IMG/VR virus record: IMGVR_UViG_3300044511_000209
Span: 1-64,000 of that record
DNA length: 64,000 nt
Reading direction: 5' to 3' (one strand)
DNA from: a virus
In this document: positions 9,149-59,257 of the stretch, piece by piece
Position numbering within the stretch: position 1 is the first letter of the stretch
How the letters are laid out: each line of letters opens with the position of its first letter
The notes under the pieces: model-generated
Told to the model about the DNA's origin: nothing
Databases searched by the model: none
Seen by the model: the letters and a program-made list of their open reading frames with translations, nothing else
Position numbers and translations under genes: made by a program

Positions 9149-9150
9149 GC

Positions 9151-9660
9151 TTAATTGGGCACTTCTTCAAAAGTGGCCCGAATTGTGAAATTATCCTTGA
9201 AAATAAAGGAGGGGGTCCATTCCCTGCAAACGTATCGCTTGTTTACATTGTAGGGATTTGGCGCGTTAAATACAAAGGATTCCCATGCGGCTCTGACGTG
9301 CAAAAAGTGTAAGATAGCGGTAGCCTCATTTTCCCTCTTCGTGGCAAAAGATAAATCAAAGGCAAGCAATACGTTATTGATACCATCGGGTGCGCGCTGT
9401 TCATAGCCATCCCCGAATTTTATCGATTTTGCACGCGGCTTCATGGACGCCTCGCTGTTGTAGGAGGGCTTCCAAAAGAAATAGGGCTTTGTTTCGGCGT
9501 TATCGGTAATAGTGCCGTTAAATTTTGTGGCATCAAAGGAGGCTGTGCTGGTATGCGGAACAATACAATAATAGAAGTAATTACCATTCTTTACAATATC
9601 GTAAAGGTCATATTTGGTGCTTGCAGCCCAATTGGGAATGTTGTAAATGGAGCTTGCCAT
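9151..9660 (-). CDS. Minor tail protein, lambda M-like
   Basis: This 169-residue protein begins with a carbohydrate-binding-like stretch (IPNWAASTKYDLYDIVKNG). It continues with the M-family signature FGDGYEQRAPDGIN near residue 85 and ends in TIRATFEEVPN, as M proteins do. It heads the minus-strand tail-tip block M-L-K-I-J. Its start is divergent from the plus-strand virion genes, separated by 66 bp that contain a palindrome. Confidence 0.86.
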   Translation of the reverse strand: MASSIYNIPNWAASTKYDLYDIVKNGNYFYYCIVPHTSTASFDATKFNGTITDNAETKPYFFWKPSYNSEASMKPRAKSIKFGDGYEQRAPDGINNVLLAFDLSFATKRENEATAILHFLHVRAAWESFVFNAPNPYNVNKRYVCREWTPSFIFKDNFTIRATFEEVPN

Positions 9661-9726: not shown

Positions 9727-10584
9727 ATGGCCGAAAACGTAACTTTTGCGGGCAGGGTAAGGCGTGAACATCAACGCTTCTTCATTAATTCCACCGAATT
9801 ATTTGGAGTTCAGTCCATTAACCTCGGATATGCCGTTGGCGGGCAGAATCTTGCCTATTTAGGTATGAATAATGCAAATTTCGTGCCCGCTGGCGCACAG
9901 GTTGGTAATGTAAGCTTGAACCGTTTGATGCTAGATTCCGACCCGTTGCTGAATTATACAGGGGAGAATGGGTTTAACGGTTATATTCTAAAAAATCTTA
10001 CAAATGGCGCGGATAATTACAGTTTTACCTCCGGTTTTGTGACACAATACGGGTTGAAGTGCGCCGTAGGGGAAATACCACAAAGTAATGCGGGTATTAC
10101 CGTCTTTGGTAATATGGGAAAGATTGCTACGGGCGAATCATCCCAAACACTTACCGATTTTGCCAACATCTCCGCCGCAACCAGCGGCGTATTCTTTAAC
10201 TTAACATCATACGGGGCATTAACCGTCTCCATTAACGATTTCAACTCCAACCGTCTTTTGGGACTTGACCTTAGCCTGAAAATCAACCGTAACCCCATTT
10301 ATCGCCTCGGCAGCAAGGCCGTGAAAAATGTGTTCATCAACTATCCGATAGAGGTAGATTGCTCATTCGAGGTGGATATCAATGATTATGACGCAACCAC
10401 CTTGGATAAGTATCTGAATCTGCCCAAGGTTGAAAATCTAACGCTGAATTTAAATCATTTTACGCGCGGGCATACAATCCAATCCTTCGCGTTTAGCAAT
10501 ATGGAATTACTCGGAGAGGAAAGAAATGTCAATATCGATGGCAACGTCGTGTCTCGTCTTGCCTACAAAGGATACATCTTGTAA
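9727..10584 (+). CDS. Virion tail protein, paralogue 1 of 3
   Basis: This 285-residue protein opens the plus-strand virion block. Its fold appears shared with the next two genes: a beta-rich protein with a motif near residue 115 (YGLKCAVGEIPQSN) matching YTLKCAPNDIV in the second and YSLNCTPNNPV in the third. Length and beta content fit a tail-tube or tube-capping protein, but I do not recognise a named family. The start follows a GGTAGGT-like Shine-Dalgarno. Confidence 0.6.
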   Translation: MAENVTFAGRVRREHQRFFINSTELFGVQSINLGYAVGGQNLAYLGMNNANFVPAGAQVGNVSLNRLMLDSDPLLNYTGENGFNGYILKNLTNGADNYSFTSGFVTQYGLKCAVGEIPQSNAGITVFGNMGKIATGESSQTLTDFANISAATSGVFFNLTSYGALTVSINDFNSNRLLGLDLSLKINRNPIYRLGSKAVKNVFINYPIEVDCSFEVDINDYDATTLDKYLNLPKVENLTLNLNHFTRGHTIQSFAFSNMELLGEERNVNIDGNVVSRLAYKGYIL

Positions 10585-10586
10585 TT

Positions 10587-11405
10587 ATGCTCTTCTTTAA
10601 ACGATGTAATGTTGAGATTAATGGTTCTGGGTTAATCGCCGAGAACGCGAACATTAATTCCAGCAATTCTTTGACTCCTGCTTGGATGGTGGGAAAAATC
10701 GGGGCTGGTAACATTACCCCCAATGGCCCCTTACGAACCACCATTCGTATTGATTACATACCAGAAACGAACAGGGAGCCCAATCACGGTATCGCCAATT
10801 TAATCCGCGCCTTGGCGGACGATTCGACGTGGAGTGGGGTTAACATTGCCATTGGGGGCATCACGGGTTATGAATGTTATCTGGATAATTATACGCTCAA
10901 ATGCGCGCCAAATGACATTGTAAAATCAAGCGCAACTTATACCACGTTTCTTCAATTGTCGGGGGTGTTGGCAAACCAAACCGGCACGCATCTCGTTCGT
11001 AACAACATAGCACACGCTTGGGGGCTTTATATCGTTGGTAGCGGAACCAACTTGAACGATATTTATGATTTTGATTATACCTTTAATGCGGCTTGGGAGC
11101 CCGTCTATAAAATAGGACAAAAAACACCCATTGCCGTGCGCTTGATGAACGGTAATGAAACCTTTGCTGTCACGCGCGATACCTTTTATCGCAATACCTT
11201 TTCGGGTGAAACGCTGTATTCTGGCGTGATTACAAATGGCACCGACTATGGTATCGACGTATTCAACCTTAATGCTTTTATCAGTGGGTCGGGTATTGCC
11301 CCGCTTAACTTAAACTTTTCTGGCGCGAAAATCACCAATGTAAGCGTAAACGCCAGCGTAAATGATATTGTCAGGGTAAAAACAGAGGCAATCAAATACT
11401 TCTAA
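10587..11405 (+). CDS. Virion tail protein, paralogue 2 of 3
   Basis: This 272-residue protein starts 2 nt after the previous stop. It shares the Y-x-L-x-C-x-P-N core motif near residue 105 and an overall beta-rich layout with its neighbours on both sides, indicating tandem duplication and divergence. It probably forms part of a tail-tube-like ring or tip. The function is inferred from context and paralogy only. Confidence 0.58.
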   Translation: MLFFKRCNVEINGSGLIAENANINSSNSLTPAWMVGKIGAGNITPNGPLRTTIRIDYIPETNREPNHGIANLIRALADDSTWSGVNIAIGGITGYECYLDNYTLKCAPNDIVKSSATYTTFLQLSGVLANQTGTHLVRNNIAHAWGLYIVGSGTNLNDIYDFDYTFNAAWEPVYKIGQKTPIAVRLMNGNETFAVTRDTFYRNTFSGETLYSGVITNGTDYGIDVFNLNAFISGSGIAPLNLNFSGAKITNVSVNASVNDIVRVKTEAIKYF

Positions 11406-11411
11406 TCGCCC

Positions 11412-14400
11412 ATGTTTTACTCCTACAAAAATTCCAATGTTCGCATCAATGGCAGGGATTTACAATTTACTGATGCGAGCATCAACATCCGGGGCGACCA
11501 AGAGCCGGTTTATAGTATTCCCAATCGGAATAGCACCGAATTTGTTCCTAATGATGGTATTGGCGGCTCATTAAAGTTGACATATTACTTGACTGGTAAT
11601 GATATACTCAAACCCTTTATTACCAATGAATCCAGTGGTATTTCTGGCAATTTTGGCGGCTTGTTCTTTTCGGGTGGCTATCTTAAGAATTATAGCTTAA
11701 ATTGCACACCCAACAATCCCGTTCAGGTTAATGCGGAACTGGTATTTTTCGATGAATTAAAGGGTGTTTTTGCGCCTACCTATCAAACTGTTTCTAATTT
11801 TCATTGCTTAAATTATGCGGATGCAAGCCTGACATTAACGACGGGTAATTCAATCGGTGACATTACCAACGCAACCCGCATAGCCTTCAATTACAATGTG
11901 GAAATTGTTCCCGTATATGCCGTGGGAGACATACTGCCCGAACGCATTTTTTTCGGTAAAAAGGAAATCACGGCAGAAGTTGAGTGTGATAATTTAAGCG
12001 GCAATTTATTGGTATCGGGCAATCGTGCGGGCATCAAGATTAATTTTGCCCATCCTAGTTTGCCGAACCTGTCCGAATCGTTCCTATCCAACGGCATCCT
12101 ACATACGCGCGAGATAGGCGCTTCACAAGGCAGCTTACTAAAAAGCGTATTATCAATACGGCAACAACACACAAATAATCCGCCCGTCATTTCTTATTTT
12201 CAAGCCACGGGTGGGGCTCCCGGTGGTCAATTTTTCATTAGTGGCCAATATCTTTTATCCACAAATCGGGTGGAAATTGGTTCTGATGCCGCTACATTCA
12301 TTATATCGGGAGATGATTTGCTTGGCGTTTACGTGCCAGAGGGGGCCGTTAACGGTAACGTCAAGGTTACAAATGCCGACGATTTCACCATTTCCAGCGG
12401 TTTTAGCATTATCCAGCGCCCAATAACCATTTCGGGCATTGACGCTCATACGGGCGAATTCAACAAAATTGTTCGAATATCAGGGGATAATTTCCACAAA
12501 ATAAACCTTGTTACTTTTTCTGGCGCGGCAAGCGATTTTAAGGTCATCAATTCCAAGTTAATTGAAGCGGCGGTTCCCCTCAAGGCCGCGTGGGGAACAA
12601 TACAGGTCGCCTCAACAGACCGGACATTAACCGGAACATCCACCGGATTATTCGTGCCAGTACCTGTCATATATGGATTTTCGGGCATTAGCGGATATCC
12701 CGGTGACACCATTAACGTGTCAGGTTTCGGATTCGTAGGAGTAACGGGGGTCTATTTTAACAACATTACAGGTTCGCCCGTTTCAGTAAGTTCAATTTCT
12801 GGTTTATCGGCGGTTTTACCTACGGGAAACACGAAGGGGTTGGTTGCATTAATTGGACGCAGCGGGGTCAGCGGTCATTCCACCTTTGAGTTTACTTCAC
12901 TTTTAAGAATTTCGGGTCTTGACCCACTAAGCGGAGCTACGGGTAGTGCGGTGCGAATTTCTGGCGTCAATTTTGCGCCAACAATGCTGTTTTCCTCGGG
13001 TTCGCCCAGCAACAATGCGCTCCTTGCGTTCAACGGTGGCACGGGCGCACTGGTGCGCGTGAGTGATATATTGATTACTGGCCTTGTTCCCACGGGCGCA
13101 AAAACTGGCCCTATCTATATCTTCAAGCCGGATGGCGTAACAACCTATCCATCAGGATTGACCTTCAAGGTCTATAACGACCCGCCCACCATTACCCTTA
13201 TTGACCCCAACTCGGGCGTTCGTGGCGATAATATAGCAATCCACGGCAAAAACTTTTTCGATATTGATTCCTTCCTATTGACTGGTATTAATGCCACAAC
13301 GGGTTACAATTTCCCATCCACGGGATACAACGCGAGCGAATTCGGGGATGTATTAACCTTCAACGTGCCCAGCATTACGGGGGGTATCTATAGGGCTCTT
13401 ATTAATGCCGCAAGGGGGGGTGTTAGCGGATTCTTCACTATCAAGGATAAGCCCTTCATCAGTGGTTTTTATAATACGAGTGGTTTTATTGGGCAGCGTA
13501 TCAGCTTATCGGGCTCCAACATATACAGGGATTCTAGGGTCTATCTCAACACTACTGGAACGTCTGCGTTGGTAGATACGGGCTCCTATGTCGCGACGAA
13601 TTCAAAACTCGAATTCTTCATACCCACCAACGCGCTTTCAACCAATACGGTTATCGTTTATAACGGGGCGGACTATCATACAGGCACCGCAAACCTGACG
13701 GTTATCAACAAGCCCGTCATTAGCGGCTTCAAACCCGCATCGGGCGAGTGGGGTGATGTCATTAGCGTCAGCGGTTTGTATCTGAATGGGACAACCGGAA
13801 TGTTGATTGGCACCTCAAGGGTTAATACCTTTAGGCTAGATGGCACAACCGGCGCAGCCATGACCATTCCCGACGATGCGGCCACAAACCATATCTTTGC
13901 CCAAACGGTTGCGGGGGAAGCTCAATCATCTGGCAGGTTGGTGGTGTTGCAGCCGCAAATTATCATTAGCGGGTTCATTCCCACAAGCGGACGCACATCC
14001 CAAAAAATTACAGTATCGGGCAAATATGTTAGCACTACCGATTATGTAAGAATATCGGGCATTAATTCTTCCGAAATCATATTGAATGTTGATGGGTTTT
14101 CCAAGATTGGAACGACGGATATTTCATTCAATATTCCGGTTGGGGCTGTTACAGGCCCGATTCGCCTTCAAAATCAAAGGTATATTACCAATAGCGCCTC
14201 GAATCTTGTCGTTATTCCGTCACCCACCATTACGGGGGCATCCCAAGTTTCGGGTATATTTAATGAATCCATATCATTATTCGGAGCCAATCTAACGGGT
14301 GTAAGTGAATTCTTGTTTGTTAATCCGACGGGCGGATACACACCAGCCATAAATACTACATTAATTGGCGGCACGGGGGCTACCATTACCTTCCCGAAAG

Positions 14401-24616: not shown

Positions 24617-27211
24617 TTAAACTTCTTTGTCACCTGTTTCGGCCAAATCTTTACCCCTATCCTTCAATTGGGATACCTTGTCGAATACCTCACAAGGCTG
24701 GATTCCAATAGCCCGTGCGAACACAATGTCGGCTCCCTTTGACCCACGACAGATAATAATGTCTCCCACGGCGGGCTTTCTTCCGTTATTCTCAATGCTA
24801 TCCCCAATATTATCACGTCCCACGCTATTCGTAAGGAGGATATTGGTCTGCCCGGTGCCATCCTTAACAAATAGCTTCCAATAGGCGTTCTTCTTTTCCT
24901 TGCTGACGCCCTCCTTAAATTCAACGATTTCCCCAGCAAAATGCACCGCTTCTCGTTCGGCGGTCTTGTTTACCACGTCATGAATTGTAACTAAATCGCC
25001 ACAAAAACGCTGGAAAATATCTCGCAAATTACATGAATACGAAAAGCCGAGCAGCCTGTTTTCAAAGACATAATTTGTCAGTAATTCATTTTTACGGTTT
25101 AGGTTATAAATATCCAAATAAGGTTGAAAATACTTCTTTATAGTTTCATAACGGGATGGCTTAACTACAGGCTTACCCTTTAGATTCAGAGCTTGTTCGC
25201 GCACGTATCGGAACGTATCAAGCAAATCCCACGAATAAGTCGGGCCATACTTGAAACATTGTTCTTTTTCTTTTTGAGTTAAAATGTTCCAAAGCCCGGC
25301 CTCCATTGATAAGCGGCTACGATTAGTGGCCGAGGCATCATCTAAACAACCAGAGAATATCAGGGCGTTCAGAATAGAAATGCTTAATCCCGCATCCTCG
25401 GCGGCTTGAAAGATGTCAAACTTGCTGGAATATTCATGCTTGAAATTGTTAAGCTTTTCAAGTGTCTTTTCTGCTACCCCCTTGATGGCTCTGAGCGGAT
25501 ATCGGATATTCGCGCCCTCGGGTTGAAAATCTTGTCCTGATTTGATGATGTGTGGGGGGAGTAACTTTATACCGAAATGACTTAGTTCGGACTGAATCAG
25601 TGAAATTTCCTCGATGGGGGCGGCAAGTTCGCGGGTTGCCTTAAGACAGGCAATGTAGAATTGTTGGGGATACTTGTATTTGAGGTATATGGTTAACGCC
25701 CCGGTATAAGAAACGCTTAAGCTGTGCGTCGAGTTGAATGAATATTTTGCCGAGTCATCCAATACTTTCCATAGTGCGTTACCTACTGATTCATCATATC
25801 CGTTGGCACGACATGATTGATAAACCCGTTCCTTCCATTTCTTTACTTCCGAAACCTCCTTTTTGCCCACTATTTTGCGGCACCTTTCTGCGTCCTCACC
25901 AGAAAACCCGACCTTCATCAAGAGGCGCATCATTTGTTCCTGATACAAACAAAGAAAGCGTGTTGGCTTTAAGATATCCGTAAAGGCATTATTAACTGGT
26001 TTGGAACTATTGTTCACATAATCTGCTAAATAAGACAAAGCACCCGGACGAGCTATGGCGTTTGCATCTGATAGTTCATTAATGTTTTTGGGTTTAATGG
26101 CGGCTGTCACCCTAAACATACAGTCGGCGGAAATTTGATACAACCCATAAGGCAATAATTTACCCGTTTGAAATTGGTCATAAATCAACGGGTTTACGTC
26201 CAGTTCAATATCCTCCACCTTTTCTGGAATGTTATCAAGCACATCCTTAATGATGCCGTTGCTGGTGAGGCCGAGCAAATCCAATTTTAGCGCAATTTTG
26301 GCTGCGTCCTTCATTTCGAAGGAAACTGTAATTTCCTTGTCTTTGTTTAACTCTATCGGAATATTGCCATCTAGCGCGTCAAACGAGATTAGATAGCCGC
26401 TTGCGTGGCTTGTTTTTTGGCGAATAACGTCGCGTAGTTTAAGCGCGATACCAAATGTTTCGGGGTGCTTCTTGACCCACTCGGCAAAATCCTTGCTCTT
26501 CTCTGGCATCTTTTCGATATCTTCGACGATACCAAAATGTTTCTCAACTGTGTCAGCAACCCTTTTAGCCTCATCCTCATTAACCTCATCCACGGCTTTA
26601 AATACGTCCTTAACAAGAATTTTGCCAGTAAAGGTGCTAAGTGCTGCAATCTTAGCGATTCGACCCTGATACAGTTGATAAAGCCATTGCACGACGCTGG
26701 GCCGGACGGGGCCAATGTTGATATCTACGTCGGGAGCCAAATCACCCTGCACGTAAGTTACCCCGTTCATCTCTCGTTTATTAGCGCGCACCCGGCTGAT
26801 AAAACGCTCTAAAATAAGGTTCTTTTGAATGGGGTCAATACCAGTAACGCCTATTAAATAGAAAATAAGGCTTGCCCCTGCGCTTCCACGCCCATAATCA
26901 ATAAAAGTGCCTAATTCGCGAGCCTTATTAATAACCATCCAAACCAGAAGAAAATAGTCAACAAAGCCCAGTTCTTGAATTAAGGCCAATTCCTTTTCTA
27001 TACGCTCAAAATACTCGGAGAGCCTATCCTTGGGAATGGTGGGCATTTTCTTATCCAAACCCTGTTTGATTAAATGGGACAGAAAATCAACGTGCGAGGT
27101 ATTTTCGGGTAATCCGGCGTATAAAAGCCATTTTGTATCCAATTCAACTGTAGGAAGGCGAACCCAATTTAATAGAGGGAACTGGTATGGCTCAAATTGC
27201 TCAACAAACAT
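24617..27211 (-). CDS. DNA polymerase III alpha subunit, catalytic core without PHP domain
   Basis: This 864-residue protein aligns with DnaE from after the PHP domain onward. It has YGRGSAGASLIFYLIGVTGI, the first two catalytic Asp in LAPDVDINI, and the third in ALKLDLLGLTSNGII. Thumb and fingers regions follow (ANAIARPGALSYL, CLYQEQMMRLL, YSFNSTHSLSVSY). An HhH-like segment and a C-terminal OB fold (VHFAGEIVEF) complete it. The N-terminal PHP domain is absent but encoded separately at 31215-31988. It should copy the phage genome, probably with the exonuclease at 30580-31221. Confidence 0.93.
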   Translation of the reverse strand: MFVEQFEPYQFPLLNWVRLPTVELDTKWLLYAGLPENTSHVDFLSHLIKQGLDKKMPTIPKDRLSEYFERIEKELALIQELGFVDYFLLVWMVINKARELGTFIDYGRGSAGASLIFYLIGVTGIDPIQKNLILERFISRVRANKREMNGVTYVQGDLAPDVDINIGPVRPSVVQWLYQLYQGRIAKIAALSTFTGKILVKDVFKAVDEVNEDEAKRVADTVEKHFGIVEDIEKMPEKSKDFAEWVKKHPETFGIALKLRDVIRQKTSHASGYLISFDALDGNIPIELNKDKEITVSFEMKDAAKIALKLDLLGLTSNGIIKDVLDNIPEKVEDIELDVNPLIYDQFQTGKLLPYGLYQISADCMFRVTAAIKPKNINELSDANAIARPGALSYLADYVNNSSKPVNNAFTDILKPTRFLCLYQEQMMRLLMKVGFSGEDAERCRKIVGKKEVSEVKKWKERVYQSCRANGYDESVGNALWKVLDDSAKYSFNSTHSLSVSYTGALTIYLKYKYPQQFYIACLKATRELAAPIEEISLIQSELSHFGIKLLPPHIIKSGQDFQPEGANIRYPLRAIKGVAEKTLEKLNNFKHEYSSKFDIFQAAEDAGLSISILNALIFSGCLDDASATNRSRLSMEAGLWNILTQKEKEQCFKYGPTYSWDLLDTFRYVREQALNLKGKPVVKPSRYETIKKYFQPYLDIYNLNRKNELLTNYVFENRLLGFSYSCNLRDIFQRFCGDLVTIHDVVNKTAEREAVHFAGEIVEFKEGVSKEKKNAYWKLFVKDGTGQTNILLTNSVGRDNIGDSIENNGRKPAVGDIIICRGSKGADIVFARAIGIQPCEVFDKVSQLKDRGKDLAETGDKEV

Positions 27212-27220
27212 CGTTGAATT

Positions 27221-27249
27221 ATGATACGCAAACCTTGGATTTTCGTCAA
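27221..27249 (-). promoter_or_regulatory. Strong sigma70-like promoter for polymerase core
   Basis: TTGACG (27249-27244), a 17 nt spacer and TATCAT (27226-27221) lie 9 nt before the ATG at 27211. There is no Shine-Dalgarno upstream of the ATG. The promoter lets the polymerase core be expressed separately from its PHP domain. Confidence 0.78.
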
Positions 27250-27303
27250 TAGAAAGGTTTTAGCCCATTTTTTAAGTGTAAAGAAAAGTGAAATTTTACT
27301 CCT

Positions 27304-27717
27304 ATGCCCATCTCAATTCAAGAATATAGCGGCGTTGGTCGAATAAGCTCCTTAAACCCCGTCCTGAACTATCTATTTGACGATGCGCTCGGTAGTGGTG
27401 TTCTTCGAGCGGTTAAACCATCAGACTTGGCGGCTACATCTATAACCATCAGTAATGCAACTATTAGCGGCACCAATGGTAATTGTCTGCAAGCGAACAC
27501 CGCGCGGCGCGATTTTTATGTCCAAAATTTGGGCACTGGTAATCCACTCTTCCTCAAATTCGGTAGCGCCGCCTCCAACACATCATTTAGCGTCGCCCTT
27601 AAACCGGGTAACGTTGCGGATGATGGTATTGGCGCTTACATTTCTGATGATGTTTGGAAAGGCGTAATTAGTGTAAGTGGTGTCACGCCCCGTTATATCG
27701 CTTGGGAAAGAAGTTAG
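27304..27717 (+). CDS. Small virion-type protein, unknown
   Basis: This 137-residue beta-rich protein contains RISSLNPVLNYLFDDALGSG and repeated Ser/Thr/Ile-rich strands. Its composition matches the small proteins of the virion block, yet it lies in the replication region on the opposite strand, divergent from the polymerase core. It probably forms a two-gene unit with the next gene. A decoration or tail-accessory role is inferred from composition. Confidence 0.5.
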   Translation: MPISIQEYSGVGRISSLNPVLNYLFDDALGSGVLRAVKPSDLAATSITISNATISGTNGNCLQANTARRDFYVQNLGTGNPLFLKFGSAASNTSFSVALKPGNVADDGIGAYISDDVWKGVISVSGVTPRYIAWERS

Positions 27718-27720
27718 GAT

Positions 27721-28119
27721 ATGGGCTTAAACATCGGACAACCTGAAACAGTTCATTCGAGCCTGTATGGACGGCGTATTGCCTATAAGAACAGCGTAGC
27801 GGCGCAGACGGTGGGCAACACCGCGCTAACCTTTGAGGCGGGTTTAAGCCTAAATAATGCCGTGCCTAGCTTTGCGCTGGTAAAGTATCACAATGGCACC
27901 TTCGATTCGGCCTCAATAACAGTAGATATTGGGTCAAATGCCTTGTGCCCGGCAAGTTCATTGGTGGGCTTGGCGGCGGGCACAGTTGCTATATTGAACC
28001 TATCGGCAACCGTGGATATTGTAACATTAACCGATACTCTTCAAGTTAATGTTGCCGTTGGAAATAGCTCTGGCTCCGCGTTTGATATTGACGTGTTTGG
28101 CTTTGTTTACGCCAGCTAA
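27721..28119 (+). CDS. Small virion-type protein, unknown
   Basis: This 132-residue protein starts 3 nt after the previous stop, with a TTAGGAT Shine-Dalgarno-like stretch. It is rich in Ala, Ser, Val and Asn and contains repeated beta strands (AGLSLNNAVPSFALVKYHN, VNVAVGNSSGSAFDIDVFGF). It looks structural. It converges with the membrane-module gene at 28124-28726. Confidence 0.5.
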   Translation: MGLNIGQPETVHSSLYGRRIAYKNSVAAQTVGNTALTFEAGLSLNNAVPSFALVKYHNGTFDSASITVDIGSNALCPASSLVGLAAGTVAILNLSATVDIVTLTDTLQVNVAVGNSSGSAFDIDVFGFVYAS

Positions 28120-28123
28120 ACCG

Positions 28124-28726
28124 TTAACGCGCGTCTGGTTTGCGATGAATTTCTCCGGGTCGTAGTTCATGAAAAACCCATTCCTGTTCTTGGGATTCGC
28201 TACCCCCTTTACCCGCGTTTTTATCGTTGCCTTTTGATTTGCCAGCCTTCCCGTTTTGACCGTTTGCGCTAGCGGTGCCTTTGACTAGCTTTCCACGCGC
28301 AATCTGACCCTGACGAATTTTCGGTATGACTTCCCGTTCCAACTGCTCATGTAATTTACGGTTATAGCGCATTTCGAAAGCCCTCGGCTGTGGAATCGAT
28401 ACCCCCTTGTAACCAAAGAATTTGAGGAACGGATTTAATTGGGGCTTTTCGGAGGTTTCCAACCATAGATAAATCTTGCCGGGAAAATCCATCGATTTGT
28501 TTGGCTCTTTGATGATTACCGCGTGGATATTTACCATTTGTGGTAATTCTCGTTCAAGCGCGGGCCAACCCAAGAAGGAGTGCGAAGTGAGCCAAAAGAT
28601 AACCGTAAATAAGCAAAACGCAGAAATGCAAGATACCTTGAAATACCAGCGCACTTTTGATTCCGTTAGTAACCAGAAGGTTAAGCCCCCGAAAACCAAC
28701 ATGAGGATTGGAAAAGCTAAATTCAT
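28124..28726 (-). CDS. Two-helix membrane protein with basic tail (PMF module)
   Basis: This 200-residue protein has two N-terminal membrane segments (LAFPILMLVFGGLTFWLL and VSCISAFCLFTVIFWLTSH). An extracytoplasmic or cytoplasmic domain follows, with IYLWLETSEKPQLNPF and FEMRYNRKLHEQLEREV. A low-complexity Gly/Lys/Asn/Ser stretch near residues 150-180 and a final EWVFHELRPGEIHRK complete it. It starts 4 nt after the ExbD-like gene, as the last gene of the module. The function is unknown; a coupling or anchoring subunit is plausible. Confidence 0.6.
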   Translation of the reverse strand: MNLAFPILMLVFGGLTFWLLTESKVRWYFKVSCISAFCLFTVIFWLTSHSFLGWPALERELPQMVNIHAVIIKEPNKSMDFPGKIYLWLETSEKPQLNPFLKFFGYKGVSIPQPRAFEMRYNRKLHEQLEREVIPKIRQGQIARGKLVKGTASANGQNGKAGKSKGNDKNAGKGGSESQEQEWVFHELRPGEIHRKPDAR

Positions 28727-28730
28727 AGGT

Positions 28731-29318
28731 TTAGTAGGGACGGGTCAAAATGATGGGTAATTCGCTAATTTCCGTAATATTACCTTGCTTGTCGGTCTTA
28801 AAGCGAAAAAACGTCTTTTCCTCACCCGTAAAGGAAAGAAGCTTTTCCTTGATAATAATTTCTTGGTATGGCTTTATTTTGATTAGTTTAACCATGACTT
28901 TCGTGGGGCTTTTATCTACCTTTAGGTAGGTATGAACATTAACAATGTTTTCGCCCTCAACAACGCCCCTAAACGATACAACCTCTTCGTTCATATTGGC
29001 AACTACGCCGTTTTCGTCTGGGATGTTATTATTTCGGGCTCGGCCCAACGCATCATGGTTAAGAGATACTAAACTACCTTGCCCACCCTCCCGGTTATTA
29101 AAGCTGACAATATGACCCGATGCGGCCTTAACCCATAAATCATGGTCGTCGTCGCTTTCCCCATCCCACGTTAAAATAACCTGATATAGCACGTTGGGAA
29201 GTGGTGCTTTCTGGCTTTTATCCTCTGTTTTCAAGAGGAACAGAATAGCAATTAGCATCAGGAGGCAACAGAAAAGACTATCAATAAACGGCGTAAAGGA
29301 AAAATAGCGGCGGCGCAT
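28731..29318 (-). CDS. ExbD/TolR-like membrane protein with periplasmic domain
   Basis: This 195-residue protein has one N-terminal membrane helix, FTPFIDSLFCCLLMLIAI. It carries Asp at the place of the proton-relay Asp of ExbD/TolR, followed by the usual Leu-rich run. The C-terminal part, presumably periplasmic, has ILTWDGESDDDHDLWVKAA and later beta strands resembling DUF2135/YfaP-type domains. It lies between the TolQ-like and two-helix genes. It probably forms a proton-driven stator with 29330-29791. Confidence 0.68.
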   Translation of the reverse strand: MRRRYFSFTPFIDSLFCCLLMLIAILFLLKTEDKSQKAPLPNVLYQVILTWDGESDDDHDLWVKAASGHIVSFNNREGGQGSLVSLNHDALGRARNNNIPDENGVVANMNEEVVSFRGVVEGENIVNVHTYLKVDKSPTKVMVKLIKIKPYQEIIIKEKLLSFTGEEKTFFRFKTDKQGNITEISELPIILTRPY

Positions 29319-29329
29319 ATTGGATGATG

Positions 29330-29791
29330 TTATTTTTCCGACGCGCCCTTTAGTATCATCAATTGAATCTGCACGGGAAGGCTAAAGACGATGCCAAAAA
29401 TAGTCGTGAAAAATGCGGTGTTTAACCCTGATTTCATACCGCCAACCATTTGGGTAAGCGAGTTAGTATCGTTCAAACTTGTTTGTGTAGCCATACACAA
29501 GCCAATTAGGGTGCCAAGTAGCCCAAGTGTAAAGAAATGTTCGGCGAAAAACCAACCCGTTTCAAGTCCCTTATCCACAACCTTGCGTTCTCCGCTGTCA
29601 ATCATCTTATCCACCGAATAGGAAAGGCGTCCCAAAAATGCAGATATACCAATATACAATAGCATGATTAAAACGCAAATATAGGAAGAATCATTCTTTA
29701 TCATCATGGAAAGCATCCCACGTTGCTCGGCAAGAACGCAAGCGGTAGCAAAGACCGAATTTAGAAGAAACCATTTAGTGAATGTGTTCAT
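29330..29791 (-). CDS. MotA/TolQ/ExbB-like proton channel protein
   Basis: This 153-residue protein has an N-terminal hydrophobic segment, a second helix (VLIMLLYIGISAFLGRLSY), a cytoplasmic stretch and the family signature HFFTLGLLGTLIGLCMATQ. A conserved loop and last helix follow (GLNTAFFTTIFGIVFSLPV). That is the conserved MotA/TolQ/ExbB pair of helices. It is shorter than ExbB (about 240 residues) and has no ZorA-like tail. The start overlaps the metallopeptidase gene by 17 nt, implying translational coupling. Confidence 0.78.
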   Translation of the reverse strand: MNTFTKWFLLNSVFATACVLAEQRGMLSMMIKNDSSYICVLIMLLYIGISAFLGRLSYSVDKMIDSGERKVVDKGLETGWFFAEHFFTLGLLGTLIGLCMATQTSLNDTNSLTQMVGGMKSGLNTAFFTTIFGIVFSLPVQIQLMILKGASEK

Positions 29792-30551
29792 ATCGTTTAT
29801 GCGCCGGTAATCCTCGCAAATCCCTCAGTGTTCCGCCCATTTCTGAGCCGGTAAAATCATGCACATAAAAATATGGGGGCAAAATCCCAGCATCATGCGC
29901 GGCCTTTTCCAGTAATAAATGATAAGGCTTTTCGACGCTATTTTCCACTTTTTCGGGAAAAAGATTCGTATAGGCCACATGATAGGCATAATCGAAATAA
30001 AGCTCGATAGTCATGTTAATCTTGTGGCGCACCAATTGTTCCTGCCCAATGTTCTTAGCGTGTTCCCACTCGTGAATGAGAACGCTGGCAAAATCCCTCA
30101 TTTTATTCAAGTCTCGCGTGTCCGTGGGTTTGATTTCCTTGGCCACCGCAACATAAGCGTTCCAAGGGGTTAATTTCCCACGAAATACGGTCATGCCCAA
30201 AAGTCCGGGATTCTTCGTGAGCATATCGTCCGACCAATACAAATTCTGAAAATTCATGTCGTATTTGTCGCCCGTAAGATTCTCAACGAATCGAACGGCT
30301 AGAATTGCCAGTTTGGTGTCCTCGGCGCTAAATGGACGCCCAAAGGTAAAATCCACATCTTGAAAATCACCCAATTCCTCCCCCTTAGCCAACACTATAT
30401 CCCCGAAAGGCTTACCAGAAATGGAGGGGAATTGAATCTGATGGATACGAAGGGGCTCCTGAACGATTATGGTTTCCTTGTTAAGATAACCGATTCCTAA
30501 GACAAGAGCAACAATCCACCCGAGGATGGCAAGGTAGCGTCGTGCACCCAC
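29775..30551 (-). CDS. Membrane-anchored HEXXH metallopeptidase-like protein
   Basis: This 258-residue protein starts at a GTG. An N-terminal hydrophobic anchor (YLAILGWIVALVLGIGYL) precedes a domain with SVLIHEWEHAKNIG near residue 167, which is a zinc-metallopeptidase HEXXH motif (HEWEH). A candidate third ligand is the downstream EL/DYAYH region. It is the first gene of the four-gene membrane module and probably acts in the periplasm. It might process the cell wall, a receptor or the partner proteins. No family is assigned. Confidence 0.65.
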   Translation of the reverse strand: MGARRYLAILGWIVALVLGIGYLNKETIIVQEPLRIHQIQFPSISGKPFGDIVLAKGEELGDFQDVDFTFGRPFSAEDTKLAILAVRFVENLTGDKYDMNFQNLYWSDDMLTKNPGLLGMTVFRGKLTPWNAYVAVAKEIKPTDTRDLNKMRDFASVLIHEWEHAKNIGQEQLVRHKINMTIELYFDYAYHVAYTNLFPEKVENSVEKPYHLLLEKAAHDAGILPPYFYVHDFTGSEMGGTLRDLRGLPAHKRYEHIH

Positions 30552-30579
30552 ATAAAAAATTACACGAATTTTGCACGAA

Positions 30580-31221
30580 TTAAACCTCTATCTGAAAAAT
30601 GAGCTTCCTGAAAAGCTGGTAATTGATACTAAGGTCATATAATGCATGGTGGGTTTTCGTCGGGTCCACCTCGATACCATGCTCCTTACAGGCCAAGGTC
30701 AGGTTGGTTTTCAATCCCTTCTGGATATGATGATACAGTTTATACTGGTATTCCAGTAGGGACGATTTTCCGTCATAGGGGGCGCTCATCTTGATACCCT
30801 TTAACAAAAGGCTCGTATCCAAAACCTTGTCGGTAAAGTTATACACGGGAATTCCCAAATGCCGGAATAACGCATTTACGATATAATAGTCGAAGCATAA
30901 AATATTGTGCCCAACAATGTAATCTGCCTCGTGAAGCCACGTATTTACCGTATCAGCAACCGTTCGCGGGTCTTTACCCTCGCGATTAACTCTATCCTCG
31001 CTATAACCCGTAATTTTGGCGGCATCTCTTGATACCTTCAAGGGCGGGGTCCATTTTAATAGTTGACAAAATTCATCCACGACTTTGTTTCCCTGAACCC
31101 TAAGCATTGCTATTTCCCAAGGAAGATTATGACTCTCGTGCAGGCATAACGAGGCGGTTTCCGCATCTATGAATACGATTTTCTTGTCTTGATTGAATCG
31201 GAGTAAATGTTCGCCTAGCAT
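30580..31221 (-). CDS. DEDDh 3'-5' exonuclease, epsilon/DnaQ-like
   Basis: The ATG at 31221 overlaps the PHP gene stop (ATGCTAG), so it is preferred over the ATG at 31245. All catalytic motifs are present: Exo I FIDAETASL, Exo II VGHNILCFDYYIVN and Exo III HHALYDLS (His-x4-Asp), which make it DEDDh type. Length is 213 residues. It probably supplies proofreading for the polymerase III core. Its place directly after the PHP-domain gene suggests a reassembled PHP-epsilon-alpha enzyme. Confidence 0.88.
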   Translation of the reverse strand: MLGEHLLRFNQDKKIVFIDAETASLCLHESHNLPWEIAMLRVQGNKVVDEFCQLLKWTPPLKVSRDAAKITGYSEDRVNREGKDPRTVADTVNTWLHEADYIVGHNILCFDYYIVNALFRHLGIPVYNFTDKVLDTSLLLKGIKMSAPYDGKSSLLEYQYKLYHHIQKGLKTNLTLACKEHGIEVDPTKTHHALYDLSINYQLFRKLIFQIEV

Positions 31222-31988
31222 GAAATACCTTGCCTTTCTGTCCAAGACTCAAACGAGAACGTGTCAACGCTCATATGCTCCAAATTAGGCGCATTAATAG
31301 AAGCCCTCTTATTGATAGCGCGGGCCGTAAGGTAGGCGAGAAAGTCCTTTTTCTTATAGTAAAAGATGGAATCCACCCTCTGTGTTGGCAAGTTATTATT
31401 TTGCGCGTAATTTGTAACCTTATTTTCGATGATATGGTCAAACGGCAACCCTTTCGATTCGAGGAAGAAAGTGGGTTTTATATGCCCAAAGTTCGGCACA
31501 ATATTTGCAAAAGTGAGAGCATTTTTAAAAAGAAACGAATCATAAAACGGCACGCCCAGCGCCAGATTTTCCGTCCAATATTTTTGAAGATTTTGCCAAT
31601 CCGTGCGGTTTTCATAATAAAAGCCCTCCGTGCTTGAGTGTGAATAGAGCCGGGTTAAATCGTGATACCCCTTTGTATTTCGAGCCCAAACGATAACCTT
31701 GTTTTCTCCCAAAAAACTACCATCATCTTTCTGATGAACGTCGTTGCACACAACGACTTTATAGCCGAAACGTAACAGGGCTCCCGCTTTTTCTATATTC
31801 GAAAAAGCTTGAATAAAGCCAGACATTGACGTTTCTGCCAGAAAAACCTCCTTTAATCCGAACTTTTTAACGAGCGCGCAAATCGAGACGGGATAATTAT
31901 CCCGAATCTCGTCGGAATCATCAAGGGTTAAAATGCTACGTCCAATGGAGTAATGGGACGCAAAAACCGGGATGGTAGGCTCGTTCAT
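31215..31988 (-). CDS. Stand-alone PHP domain of split DNA polymerase III alpha
   Basis: This 257-residue protein matches the N-terminal PHP region of DnaE, not a whole enzyme. It has FASHYSIGRSILTLDD (the first His motif region), LKEVFLAETSMSGFIQAF, ENKVIVWARNTKGYHDLTRL and GFYYENRTDW. Several His/Asp metal ligands of active PHP domains seem altered, so the nuclease activity is probably lost and the role structural. It is followed by the exonuclease gene and ends close to where the core gene begins in a fused DnaE. Confidence 0.82.
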   Translation of the reverse strand: MNEPTIPVFASHYSIGRSILTLDDSDEIRDNYPVSICALVKKFGLKEVFLAETSMSGFIQAFSNIEKAGALLRFGYKVVVCNDVHQKDDGSFLGENKVIVWARNTKGYHDLTRLYSHSSTEGFYYENRTDWQNLQKYWTENLALGVPFYDSFLFKNALTFANIVPNFGHIKPTFFLESKGLPFDHIIENKVTNYAQNNNLPTQRVDSIFYYKKKDFLAYLTARAINKRASINAPNLEHMSVDTFSFESWTERQGISC

Positions 31989-32155
31989 TCGTTGCGTCGT
32001 GAATCCTTGGAGGTTTTCTTAAACGAGAATCTCACGCCGCTAACAGTATTGAAAATATGCACACAATCCTCCAATAAACCGAGAGGGAAGGGACCAAGCT
32101 TGGGCTTTTTGGGCACCTTCACAAAAAACATGACGATGGGTTTATCCCGCCTCAT
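31985..32155 (-). CDS. Small basic protein heading the PHP operon
   Basis: This 56-residue protein (MRRDKPIVMFFVKVPKKP at its start) has an ATGA overlap with the PHP gene. A strong promoter lies immediately before the ATG at 32155, with a 6 nt gap after the -10 box, which fixes this start over the internal ATG at 32131. The protein is Lys/Arg-rich and otherwise unknown. It could bind DNA or the replication complex. Confidence 0.62.
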   Translation of the reverse strand: MRRDKPIVMFFVKVPKKPKLGPFPLGLLEDCVHIFNTVSGVRFSFKKTSKDSRRNE

Positions 32156-32161
32156 TGATGA

Positions 32162-32190
32162 ATGATATCCGAAACTGGAAGATGTGTCAA
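32162..32190 (-). promoter_or_regulatory. Strong sigma70-like promoter, leaderless geometry
   Basis: TTGACA (32190-32185), a 17 nt spacer and TATCAT (32167-32162) lie 6 nt before the ATG at 32155. It should drive the small gene, the PHP gene, the exonuclease and possibly the membrane module. Confidence 0.8.
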
Positions 32191-32667: not shown

Positions 32668-33687
32668 TTAGATGAAGGTGGGGTCGTTGTTATTATTTAC
32701 ACCCTTATTAAACTTTGCAAAAACCGGGCACCCATCATATTGCTTCTCAACCACTTGCGAATCGAAGTTTGCCTTGGCTTCAAGTTTTTGCTTATCAAAT
32801 CCAGTTGAAATGATTTGCCCGCTAATGGAATCAATGAGGGCAAAATACTTTACGGGAAACTTATAGGGGCAATACCACATTGGGGTGCCATCCTTTTTCT
32901 TTTGACCGGGTGAGCGGGCAAAACCACAGAGCCATTTCTTATCATCGTGGTTATAGGCGAAATCAGATTGCGCCTCTTTTTCGGTAAAGCTCTTAAATAC
33001 TTCACCCATTTTGGATAAATAGGATTCCAATCCTCTCAATTGCTTCTCGGAATAAGGTGGAACGGTCTGTATAGGATTTTCAGGAAACCGTAACAACACG
33101 AATTCCACGCGCGCGGGCTTGTTGAACCTTTTGCGTGCGGCCAACTGATAAATCCCAGCCTGAATATTATCGCGTAATTGCTCATCCGTAAATTGACGGC
33201 TTTGGGATTTAAAGTCTCGAATAAGGACTTCATTCTCGAATTCCGCGCAATCATCAATAAGTCCCTTCAATTCCAAGGGCTCCAAATGCAAAACAAATTC
33301 ATACTCTGGCGGCAAAACTTGGAGCGCCCCCTTGTGAAAGAAATCATATTTCAAACCTACCTGAATCAAGCCATTAAATTCAGCTTGAAAGGTTTCATAG
33401 GATACGCCCAATCTTTTACAGGCGGATTGTATCATCCTCATAATCGCCTTCGATTTATGAATAGACGGGTTGGGCTCGGATGTGATTTCTACGAAATGAT
33501 GATAATGCCGGGGGTTCTTCAATACCTCAAACACGCTATGCACAATCGTTCCGACAAGCGTTTTGGGGTGCGGGGTTTGTGGCACCCGAAGCACGTTATT
33601 GACGTAAAACATCCAAGAACAATTATCCAGTTCCTTGATTCGGGATGCTGAAAGTCTTAATTTCTTGGGTGTGTTGACGTTATTCAT
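32668..33687 (-). CDS. RecB/Cas4-type PD-(D/E)XK exonuclease
   Basis: This 339-residue protein shows the RecB-family nuclease order: a His in VGTIVHSVFEVL near residue 50, GLIDDCAEF with the catalytic Asp, VLIRDFKSQ with D-x-K, and DNIQAGIYQLAA with the Q-x3-Y motif. Two late Cys-containing segments (WLCGFARSPG and WYCPYKFP) could hold a metal cluster, as in Cas4/AddB-type proteins. It overlaps the primase gene by 8 nt. Confidence 0.82.
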   Translation of the reverse strand: MNNVNTPKKLRLSASRIKELDNCSWMFYVNNVLRVPQTPHPKTLVGTIVHSVFEVLKNPRHYHHFVEITSEPNPSIHKSKAIMRMIQSACKRLGVSYETFQAEFNGLIQVGLKYDFFHKGALQVLPPEYEFVLHLEPLELKGLIDDCAEFENEVLIRDFKSQSRQFTDEQLRDNIQAGIYQLAARKRFNKPARVEFVLLRFPENPIQTVPPYSEKQLRGLESYLSKMGEVFKSFTEKEAQSDFAYNHDDKKWLCGFARSPGQKKKDGTPMWYCPYKFPVKYFALIDSISGQIISTGFDKQKLEAKANFDSQVVEKQYDGCPVFAKFNKGVNNNNDPTFI

Positions 33688-34690
33688 GGGGCGCTAATTG
33701 CGTGAAAAAATCAGTGATTTTCTCCCGTCCGCCATCGGACATCAATAACTCATTCCAATCTTTGGCTGGGGGCAGACAAATTTGGATTTTCGGCGCATCA
33801 AAATATTTACGCAATTTGGTTTGCAACTTAGAAGCCGCCTTGTTCCCCGCTTGACCGCCCACCAAAGCATCATTATTCACGCTGATAATAATCCTGTCTA
33901 GCGGCAACTTCAATAAACAATTAATTTGTGCCGTGCTGATATCCACACCAAACAAGACAAACGCCGTTTTGATTCCGCACTCGTATAGAGCAAGGCAATC
34001 AAAAATGCTTTCCACAAGAATTATTTCTCGTTTTGTCTTGATATCTTCCGCATTAATAAACAGGGGATATTTGAACTCGGATTTATCACCAACAATCTTC
34101 ACCTTGGGTCTGGGTGTGTTCTTGGTTGATGTCACGTCCCTTCCCACAAAACCCACAACCTGATATTGGTCATTAAAAACTGGAAAAATGAATCGCCCGC
34201 TCAATTTGCCCTTATTAGTCGGCGAGGATAATCCACCCTTGAATATTCTTACCGTGTTTTCGGAGATGCCCCGGCTCAGTGGATAAGCATATATTGGGGC
34301 TAACTTCAAAAGTAAATCGTTTGAAAACACCCTCTGGGTCTTTAACTTCATTTTCTGACGAAAAAGCGCGCCCTGCACGGGGGGCACAACGATGTTTTTA
34401 TCGGCGAGCCATTTAGCAAAAGACCCATCCTCCATTTGCAAGGTGCGGGCAATCAATTGTTCAATTGAGAATTTCTCAGTTGTGACAAAATCAATCACGA
34501 GATTCTTATCGGGATAAATGGCGAGACTCGTGTTATTATCGCCGTTTCGATACAGCGCGGCGGTCTGAATATAGGTGCCAGACCGTCTTAATGAATATCC
34601 AAGCTCTTCCAGCGCGGACAATAATTGCTCAACGGAATGACCCGTCGCTGGCGTAACCGGCGCTGCGGTTGTTTGTGGGTTGGATAGCAT
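33680..34690 (-). CDS. DNA primase with TOPRIM domain
   Basis: The ATG at 34690 overlaps the helicase stop; an earlier ATG at 34705 is also possible. The N-terminal region (VEQLLSALEELGYSLRRSG, TSLAIYPDKNLVIDF) follows the CHC2-type layout but lacks its Cys/His ligands. The TOPRIM domain has REIILVESIFDCLALYECG with the key Glu, and RIIISVNNDALVGGQAG with acidic residues. It should make RNA primers for the helicase encoded just upstream. Confidence 0.85.
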   Translation of the reverse strand: MLSNPQTTAAPVTPATGHSVEQLLSALEELGYSLRRSGTYIQTAALYRNGDNNTSLAIYPDKNLVIDFVTTEKFSIEQLIARTLQMEDGSFAKWLADKNIVVPPVQGALFRQKMKLKTQRVFSNDLLLKLAPIYAYPLSRGISENTVRIFKGGLSSPTNKGKLSGRFIFPVFNDQYQVVGFVGRDVTSTKNTPRPKVKIVGDKSEFKYPLFINAEDIKTKREIILVESIFDCLALYECGIKTAFVLFGVDISTAQINCLLKLPLDRIIISVNNDALVGGQAGNKAASKLQTKLRKYFDAPKIQICLPPAKDWNELLMSDGGREKITDFFTQLAPHE

Positions 34691-34691
34691 A

Positions 34692-36224
34692 TTACAATTT
34701 CTCATCCTTGTGTGGCTCCTTGCCGCCCTGTTCGTCTGTGTTCTCGTAAATTTCCTTGAGTTCTTGGGCCATCTTGTTCAAATCGCCCTTATCTTCAAAA
34801 AAGAATGAACTGCTCGCCAAATTGATATAGTTCCTCTCATACTTTTTGCCGACCTTGACCGGGTTCAGCGCGGCCTGATAATCCATTCCCAAGGAACGAT
34901 GTTTGACGTTCTTCATCTTGAGATTACCATATTTGTCCCCCTCGTAGGCAACTTCATCCATCAGTTTTTGCCGGATAATCCAAGCGTGATTCACTTGTTG
35001 AATAATGCGGTCGGATAGGCTGAAAATATCCTCAGAATCATCTATCTGTGAGGACAGCCGGTTATTGGTAATACCCTTTCGGTTCGATTGCAAGCTTACC
35101 CACGCCGCCGCATCTATTTCATTTAGTATCAGGGATTTTAAAGACTGGATAAAGTGACCCATCTCCTTGTATTCGGGCACATTTGGATTAAAATCGAAGG
35201 GTTTTAAATAATCGTAATGAATCAAAAGCTTCGTCTTTCTGTGCTTAGGGTCAAACTTGATGTCACGGCCCACAACCAAGAAATAAAAACGCTTGATAAT
35301 GCTGACAATTTCGGCTGGCGACTTTAAGCTGATATCCTCGTAAAACAACTTCATCGTTCGGACGCGCGGCCAAACAGACCGAACCAATCTTTCACACTCG
35401 GCGCTTTTTCGCCAAGTGCCCTGTTCAATCAGGTGTAACGGCACCCGTCCACCCGTCAACATGCATACCGCCCGCATCTGCAATTCCTCCTTGGACATTT
35501 CGCCAAAATCCAAATGCAAGATGGGTAAGTTGTATCGTTCGGCAACCCATGTCAGATAATACATGCCGATTGCGGTTTTACCAACGCCGGTTCTTGCTGC
35601 TACTAGATTAATTGCGCCCGGCCTTAGTAATGAACCGTAAATTCGATTGACTGTTTGAAAAGGGCCAACCAAAAAGGTTTGGTCGTATTCCTGTGGATTA
35701 TTGCCGCGCTCTTCAATCACCGCCTCCAAGTCCTCAAAGATATTCGACGCGCCCAAAGAGCGGGTATGAAAAGAGCTTATCGTTTTGTGATAAATAGTAT
35801 CGGTATTATTGATAAAATCGAGGCCCGTTTTGTCGGCGGACGCACGGGCCAGCTTCTTCAATGACTCGCCCATACTTTCAACGTCGCGCCGCATCCTTAA
35901 ACGAATCAAATCTTGCGCCGCCTTGATGGTCGCGGCTTTGGTTACGCTGGTAAAACAGACAACATCAATATAGGCGAAAATATCCATTTCCCCAAAGACG
36001 TGAATCCCCAAGTCCTTGATTTTTTGAGCCAAGATAACCTTGTCTATCTTCTCGCCGCCCACAAGCAGTTGGTTGATTATGGAATAAATAACCCGATGTG
36101 TGGATTCGTAGAAGTCTTTCTCGGAGAGAAAGTTGTTGATTTCTACATATACATCCAGCCCATTGTGAACTAAGCCACTAAGGACGTGGCGCTCTAATTC
36201 GATAGAGTGAATTTGACTGTCCAT
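34692..36224 (-). CDS. Replicative DNA helicase, DnaB-like
   Basis: This 510-residue protein has an N-terminal helical domain typical of DnaB (ELERHVLSGLVHNGLDVY). Its RecA-like motor has Walker A AARTGVGKTAIGMYY near residue 205 and DnaB motifs LHLDFGEMSKEELQMR, LIHYDYLKPF and AAWVSLQSNRKG. The C-terminal tail is charged. It unwinds the replication fork. It lies in one operon with the primase. Confidence 0.9.
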   Translation of the reverse strand: MDSQIHSIELERHVLSGLVHNGLDVYVEINNFLSEKDFYESTHRVIYSIINQLLVGGEKIDKVILAQKIKDLGIHVFGEMDIFAYIDVVCFTSVTKAATIKAAQDLIRLRMRRDVESMGESLKKLARASADKTGLDFINNTDTIYHKTISSFHTRSLGASNIFEDLEAVIEERGNNPQEYDQTFLVGPFQTVNRIYGSLLRPGAINLVAARTGVGKTAIGMYYLTWVAERYNLPILHLDFGEMSKEELQMRAVCMLTGGRVPLHLIEQGTWRKSAECERLVRSVWPRVRTMKLFYEDISLKSPAEIVSIIKRFYFLVVGRDIKFDPKHRKTKLLIHYDYLKPFDFNPNVPEYKEMGHFIQSLKSLILNEIDAAAWVSLQSNRKGITNNRLSSQIDDSEDIFSLSDRIIQQVNHAWIIRQKLMDEVAYEGDKYGNLKMKNVKHRSLGMDYQAALNPVKVGKKYERNYINLASSSFFFEDKGDLNKMAQELKEIYENTDEQGGKEPHKDEKL

Positions 36225-36496: not shown

Positions 36497-36730
36497 TTAA
36501 TATCCCCAATCTGTGCGATGATGGGGTTCTTCAATGTAGCGCGCGGTTCTATATTCCCGCCCCATCGAATATGCCACCCACGCAGCACGTTTCAAATCAT
36601 CTTCGGTGACGAGCCCCTTGTCTAACAAGCTTAAATACGCATGGTTCAGCTTGCCATTGAATTGCCACCATTTATTGAATTCGTAGCTGTATTGTGGGTT
36701 CATAGTTTTGTTTGTTTTGTTTATTACCAA
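36497..36730 (-). CDS. Small hypothetical protein
   Basis: This 77-residue protein (68 residues if the ATG at 36703 is used) has a Trp/Tyr-rich N-terminal region (FNKWWQFNGKLNHAYL) and LVTEDDLKRAAWVAYSMGRE. It overlaps the 3' end of the nuclease gene by 7 nt in the same operon. No domain is recognised. Confidence 0.45.
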   Translation of the reverse strand: MVINKTNKTMNPQYSYEFNKWWQFNGKLNHAYLSLLDKGLVTEDDLKRAAWVAYSMGREYRTARYIEEPHHRTDWGY

Positions 36731-37131
36731 TAAATCTGATATTTATCCACGAACCATTGGCGGGTTAATGGAAAATCAGATTCCTCCAATTCGATGACTG
36801 TATAACCATTCTCTTCCAGTATTTTACGTTTCTTGCAATCATTTCGAAATTGTCTTAAAAAGCCATCGCGATTTCCGGCAAAAAATTTGACAAACTCATT
36901 ATGCTGCCGCCCATTGAATTCGATGGCCACCTTCTTTGAGGCACATAAGAAATCCACCCGGAGTCGGCATGTTGGCAACCTGTATTCCTCATACCACATG
37001 TGATTCTGTGCCACATTTTTCAAAAAATCCTTGACATATTGCGACCCACTGGACGGCGCGGACTTTTCCCAAACAATCTTGTATTTGCCGTCATTATGCC
37101 AGCGCTCCGCACCATTGATTATCCAGCGCAT
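36724..37131 (-). CDS. DUF559/Vsr-like PD-(D/E)XK endonuclease
   Basis: This 135-residue protein contains CRLRVDFLCASKKVAIEFNG, then FRNDCKKRKILEENGYTVIEL. It is the Vsr/DUF559 arrangement with catalytic Asp in VDF and Glu in AIEF. Small phage proteins of this type are often stand-alone homing or repair nucleases. It starts 1 nt after the RecA-like gene stop. Confidence 0.7.
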   Translation of the reverse strand: MRWIINGAERWHNDGKYKIVWEKSAPSSGSQYVKDFLKNVAQNHMWYEEYRLPTCRLRVDFLCASKKVAIEFNGRQHNEFVKFFAGNRDGFLRQFRNDCKKRKILEENGYTVIELEESDFPLTRQWFVDKYQIYW

Positions 37132-59219: not shown

Positions 59220-59257
59220 ATTATACAGTTGACAAAACAAAAAGACTAAAGTATCAT
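59220..59257. promoter_or_regulatory. Divergent promoter pair
   Basis: Plus strand: TTGACA (59229-59234), a 17 nt spacer, TATCAT (59252-59257), and the ATG at 59268 10 nt later. Minus strand: TATAAT (59225-59220) lies 7 nt before the ATG at 59212, with a poor -35. The two overlap, so a single regulator could act on both. Confidence 0.72.

Follow-up and report, generated by a model that had tools for sequence, protein, structure and literature searches.

A DNA polymerase III alpha encoded by two genes in a lineage of tailed viruses

Introduction

Strict conservation of the PHP domain has been described for the C-family replicases of bacteria (PMC3666897, PMC12926913). In Escherichia coli, five of its nine metal ligands are replaced; there it has a structural function, and mutating it makes the polymerase less stable (PMC3666897). 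Here we analyse a 64,000-nucleotide stretch of viral DNA (positions 1 to 64,000 of IMG/VR record IMGVR_UViG_3300044511_000209; hereafter the window) from a tailed phage that carries lambda-like tail genes, ribonucleotide reductase and UvsX. A model that had read the letters and open reading frames (ORFs) of the window proposed that the PHP domain and the catalytic core of its DnaE-type DNA polymerase III alpha subunit (Pol III alpha) are encoded by separate genes (the original prediction). The domains and their order, the palm Asp triad, the fingers and the HhH region correspond to those of bacterial DnaE-type Pol III alpha (E. coli, T. aquaticus and M. tuberculosis DnaE1), while the window lineage differs in that its PHP is a separate protein and in that all nine ligands have been lost.

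Several described systems share part of this arrangement. In PolC-type Pol III the exonuclease is likewise linked with the PHP region, but it lies in-frame inside the PHP domain of one chain (PMC3919608), whereas the window lineage has a separate exonuclease gene between PHP and palm. Cyanobacterial DnaE is also made from two genes; its halves, however, are rejoined by an intein, and the junction of the window lineage is without intein halves. The isolated PHP of E. coli folds and binds the proofreading exonuclease, as shown by well-behaved alpha fragments 1-270 and 1-285 with full exonuclease binding and by a PHP-epsilon chimera (PDB 4gx8/4gx9; PMC3642679), although alpha(1-270) is an engineered fragment and not a natural gene.

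The closest arrangement is that of the Rhodococcus phages Trina (gp101 and gp102) and Grayson (gp102 and gp103), in which PHP and core are annotated as two adjacent genes. In contrast to the window lineage, no exonuclease gene lies between these halves, the Trina core has an insert at the intein site, and the Trina PHP retains its metal ligands, as does that of phage NootNoot. The Trina core groups with the fused NootNoot DnaE in the tree, and relatives of Trina and Grayson (NiceHouse, Dorin and Muntaha) are annotated with one long gene; the Trina/Grayson split thus arose independently of the one described here. The passages retrieved from a Rhodococcus-phage paper covering Trina do not discuss the split, and no report of a PHP/core split was found in the literature searched, which left subscription journals mostly outside its scope.

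Results

PHP and polymerase core are separate genes

Pfam matches placed the PHP, exonuclease and core genes where the original prediction had them (Table 1), and the PHP protein and the core together make up a complete Pol III alpha whose chain is interrupted at the flexible linker between PHP and palm. Along phrog_405, a phage DnaE family, the PHP protein aligns to positions 65-240 and the core to positions 329-1037, and profile searches against solved structures covered residues 49-251 of Taq alpha with the former (1e-11) and residues 383-952 with the latter (5e-113). The core exhibits the palm Asp triad and the palm, finger and HhH domains of a C-family polymerase (DNA_pol3_alpha 5.2e-48, finger 3.5e-20, HHH_6 1.4e-14), and the three catalytic Asp residues that had been noted earlier (D161, D163 and D311) are invariant among 29 aligned relatives. 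The usual N-terminal PHP of the same chain is missing, being a separate protein here and in every relative sampled except one (locus L146, described below).

The PHP protein is predicted to be an independently folded domain, with an AlphaFold2 (AF2) model of high confidence (predicted local distance difference test, pLDDT, 92.2; predicted template modelling score, pTM, 0.89) whose best Foldseek matches are Pol III alpha PHP domains (TM 0.77, E 4.8e-13); the E. coli PHP-epsilon chimera is among the matches. The nine metal ligands of the active class (HHDHEH[C/H]DH) are replaced or gapped in 94 non-redundant PHPs, that of L146 among them, with isolated single-row exceptions: seven aligned positions mainly hold K, R/K, R, K, F, S and Y/F, and the two others are gapped. 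The original prediction, in which several ligands looked lost, thus understated the case. As all nine are replaced, the PHP of this lineage is predicted to be catalytically dead and would be a structural domain, with proofreading left to the DEDDh enzyme.

The exonuclease does adjoin the PHP gene, its true start being the ATG at 31221, which overlaps the PHP stop. Residues D19, E21, D111, H191 and D196 are invariant among 28 aligned relatives, while the C-terminal PHP-binding tail of the E. coli epsilon type is absent, the protein comprising 213 aa and the family profile stopping at the exonuclease domain. No intein is present at either junction, as had been proposed: the PHP tail past the domain has a median length of 2 aa, and the N-terminal extensions of 117 cores are at most 36 aa long. 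Additionally, an Rfam scan of window positions 20-40 kb yielded neither an RNA element nor an intron.

Table 1. Features of the replication region of the window, with positions, strand and supporting matches
Feature	Position	Strand	Remarks
PHP-less polymerase core (palm, thumb, fingers, HhH, OB region)	24617..27211	-	864 aa; Pfam
Promoter-like site TTGACG-N17-TATCAT	27221..27249	-	ends 9 nt before core ATG
Insertion between exonuclease and core genes	27212..30579		3.4 kb; two + ORFs, four - ORFs (MotA/TolQ/ExbB-like gene among the latter); not at this place in nearest relative L073
DEDDh 3'-5' exonuclease	30580..31221	-	213 aa; RNase_T 8.4e-15; phrog_192 (polymerase exonuclease subunit) 5.1e-25
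Stand-alone PHP domain protein, predicted metal-dead, N-terminal part of Pol III alpha	31215..31988	-	257 aa; Pfam PHP 1.4e-11
56-codon ORF	31986..32155	-	stop overlaps PHP ATG; no homologue in 14 relatives' loci
Promoter-like site TTGACA-N17-TATCAT	32162..32190	-	6 nt before the 56-codon ORF heading the PHP-exonuclease unit
PD-(D/E)XK (Cas4/RecB-type) nuclease, same replication module	32668..33687	-	PDDEXK_1 1.1e-17; conserved synteny
DNA primase	33680..34705	-	phrog_47 1e-20; synteny
DnaB-like replicative helicase	34692..36224	-	phrog_19 2e-30; synteny

The split is conserved among related viral loci

Core relatives of 34-53% identity were drawn from viral contigs, with a later core search extending to at least 584 contig stretches; PHP relatives were drawn from at least 563 contig stretches, with an alignment as the query. 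The same split, for which a search of phage genomes had been suggested, recurred: PHP, exonuclease and core occur in this order, as separate genes on one strand, in 129/129 distinct related viral loci, which excludes chance. The spacing between the PHP and exonuclease genes was 20 bp or less in 60 of 128 loci. Of 170 loci to which profiles of the three proteins were applied, 156 had all three, and L146 alone had PHP and core in one ORF, while a later scan of 74 loci (some on contigs overlapping earlier loci) found 68 with all three genes separate and no fusion. Further PHP-core fusions were detected neither by a search with L146, which matched only itself, nor by the profile scan of the later loci. 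Some of the contigs belong to metagenome-assembled genomes with conflicting taxa (Flavobacteriaceae, Saprospiraceae, Halobacteriovorax, Woesebacteria and Verrucomicrobiales) and are probably mis-binned viral contigs.

In 39 loci a nuclease-like protein, of PD-(D/E)XK type by eye, lies between PHP and exonuclease, and in five (L078, L071, L015, L025 and L064) such a domain is joined to the C-terminus of PHP; further nuclease-like examples are at L010:936-1424 and L022:8511-9086. A PHP-exonuclease fusion considered for L078, L071 and L015 was rejected, the PHP tail being this other, nuclease-like domain.

A fused relative and the origin of the split

In L146, PHP and core form a single protein of 1138 aa, PHP residues 3-250 being followed directly by core residues 258-1111 (PHP ...SFESAQEIG, a short linker, then core ...NLPFYGIRLPSV). 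This protein scored 509 bits against NCBIfam TIGR00594 (DNA polymerase III alpha; cut-off 434 bits), as compared to 340 for the core alone and 44 for the PHP alone. The best PDB matches of its AF2 model (pLDDT 85.5; pTM 0.70, hence only moderate domain placement) are whole Pol III alpha chains, and the main internal segment of low confidence, residues 256-270, falls at the split point. The model was built from the smaller alignment set, since in the larger one MAFFT had spread core rows over the PHP region. The natural fusion indicates that PHP and core belong to one functional unit, and since L146 joins both parts end to end, docking in trans on the core is the most likely arrangement for the separate PHP. 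Furthermore, the L146 PHP displays the same ligand losses as the split PHPs; inactivation of the PHP is thus not a consequence of the split.

The exonuclease gene lies upstream in L146, and between PHP and core in all split genomes. In the trees L146 forms a trichotomy with the subgroup of the window and a larger group, the alternatives giving p-values of 0.41 and 0.58 in the approximately unbiased (AU) test. These trees are compatible both with a fission in the common ancestor of all split genomes, to which L146 would be sister, and with a re-fusion in L146. Since a fused DnaE is the rule in bacteria and in most phages, this lineage has undergone fission at least once. Insertion of the exonuclease gene into the PHP/palm linker is an attractive candidate cause.

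Polymerase complement

The original prediction would not have survived a full-length DnaE elsewhere in the genome, and none was found: the 65,675-b record of the window contains one alpha match, and the contigs of ten relatives (146-219 kb) each carry the PF07733 core, the PHP and the exonuclease in a single copy. Neither PolA nor PolB was detected in these ten contigs or in the window's own record (11 linear, perhaps incomplete records, which makes this evidence strong and not absolute). A beta clamp (PF02768) was also sought in the relatives' contigs, with no recognisable one found.

Genomic context

PHP and core are 4.0 kb apart in the window, as had been reported, but this distance is due to a local insertion and is not part of the design, the genes being close together in most relatives. 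Both the gap and the core's own promoter-like site are explained by the unrelated genes inserted between exonuclease and core (Table 1). These include a MotA/TolQ/ExbB-like gene (29330-29791), a weak ExbD-like one and, at 29775-30551, a gene for a protein with an HExxH-like motif; the insertion may be a cassette for envelope or lysis functions. The conserved order of the replication module is uvsX, a small nuclease fold, helicase, primase, Cas4-like nuclease, PHP, exonuclease and core. A DUF559 (VSR/restriction-fold) protein of the module (36724-37131) has a tree that correlates most with that of the core (partial r 0.54), and a transposase (phrog_506, 8e-40) lies at 61380-62546.

Six promoter-like sites (TTGACA, 17 nt, TATCAT/TATTAT) occur in the window, at 59229, 56330, 32190, 27249, 24608 and 20809, each 6-11 nt before an ATG. 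Counting sites at most 11 nt from an ORF that starts with ATG and is at least 50 codons long gave six in the window and none in 200 shuffles, and their recurrence suggests leaderless transcripts or very short leaders. A leaderless promoter had been proposed for both genes; this plausibly holds for the core, while the upstream site at 32190 serves the 56-codon ORF, so that the PHP gene itself is not leaderless.

Inteins were read in the cores of some relatives, and lie elsewhere than the PHP/core junction. At the site YSFN^C...N^S, a contiguous mini-intein of approximately 130 aa is present in L069, L070 and L079 (L069:9983-13018; L079:9995-12934), while in L076 (3726-6701) the core is broken into two genes with intein halves at this site, and the core of L091 (7995-10979) is broken similarly. 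L061 has a second split-intein site, GRG^C...HN^S (10001-10603 and 10706-13048), and a LAGLIDADG-like endonuclease gene between PHP and exonuclease (8596-9390). The DnaEs of Alicyclobacillus phage KKP_3916 (L173) and Bacillus phage G (L175) are in several ORFs, in phage G beside a homing endonuclease; these breaks are likely introns or inteins, unlike the PHP/core split.

Discussion

We favour, with a probability of approximately 0.82, a two-polypeptide C-family replicase in which the linker is cut, a dead PHP docks on the core, the exonuclease is anchored by the PHP, and the split is a single ancestral one; the split alpha, of DnaE type, would be the virus's only replicative polymerase. The PHP protein would dock on the palm and thumb of the separate core as it does in an ordinary alpha, stabilising the core, and would also anchor the adjacent DEDDh exonuclease, PHP and exonuclease forming a proofreading module on the core. 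The split may have occurred once, in the lineage ancestor and after inactivation of the PHP, with the exonuclease gene coming between the halves. By analogy with the E. coli subunits, the most likely role of the separate PHP is to bind to the core and bring the exonuclease with it. The trees of PHP, exonuclease and core correlate across 32 genomes in a mirror-tree comparison (r 0.89-0.90) with positive partial correlations, which is weak evidence.

Certain observations weigh against this proposal. The partial correlations of PHP with primase (0.33) and of the core with the protein at 36724 (0.54) are as strong as that of PHP with core (0.28). In E. coli, epsilon wraps the PHP with a C-terminal tail, which the 213-aa exonuclease lacks; the phage enzyme must therefore dock differently. 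In the window the core has a promoter-like site of its own, and its dosage need not be coupled to that of the PHP. Finally, L146 may be a re-fusion rather than the ancestral state. A more far-reaching proposal is put forward only tentatively, at somewhat less than even odds: that this is a lineage of tailed viruses with an obligate two-subunit replicase, in which the dead PHP is a docking subunit common to exonuclease and core, which arose through an exonuclease gene in the linker, and in which proofreading is detachable.

Of the other explanations, the one that survives best is that the PHP has left the polymerase for another partner, e.g. the PD-(D/E)XK-like nuclease, and that the core works alone. 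The nuclease-like gene between PHP and exonuclease in 39 loci, its fusion to PHP in five, and the predicted inactivity of the PHP would suit such a departure. It is nonetheless unlikely, given that L146 keeps PHP and core in one chain, that 10/10 large contigs pair one PHP with one core, that their adjacency is conserved in 129/129 loci, and that the C-family PHP is regarded as strictly conserved and structurally important (PMC3666897, PMC12926913). Slightly less likely again is that the core is an accessory or translesion polymerase, the copying of the genome being left to a polymerase of the host or to another viral one. The lack of a recognisable beta clamp in the contigs does suggest that replication leans on host or other factors, but helicase, primase, UvsX and nuclease are found with the core in a conserved module, the core has a DEDDh proofreader dedicated to it, and neither PolA nor PolB was seen in the 11 records.

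Rejoining of PHP and core by trans-splicing, through a split intein or split intron, is very improbable. Contiguous and split inteins do occur elsewhere in the cores of relatives (L069, L079, L076 and L061) and an intein splits the cyanobacterial DnaE (PMC3919608); the PHP tails and core extensions are, however, too short for an intein, no Rfam intron lies in the region, and the core is provided with an ATG and a promoter-like site of its own. An assembly or sequencing artefact (frameshift or chimera), conceivable for a metagenomic record, is refuted by the relatives: more than 120 distinct loci share one gene order and are cut cleanly at one and the same linker. In the window, moreover, 3.4 kb of other genes lie between the parts.

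The favoured reading, a two-polypeptide replicase, makes this a virus lineage with a two-subunit C-family alpha, a new form of a known enzyme rather than a system of a new type. Its separate PHP breaks the textbook rule that the PHP always lies within the polymerase chain. This lineage keeps the PHP as a separate, apparently inactivated protein in every sampled genome that can be judged. The structural role of the PHP in core stability, processivity and exonuclease recruitment is thereby directly testable in trans, in a natural two-part Pol III alpha for which the L146 fusion represents a built-in control.

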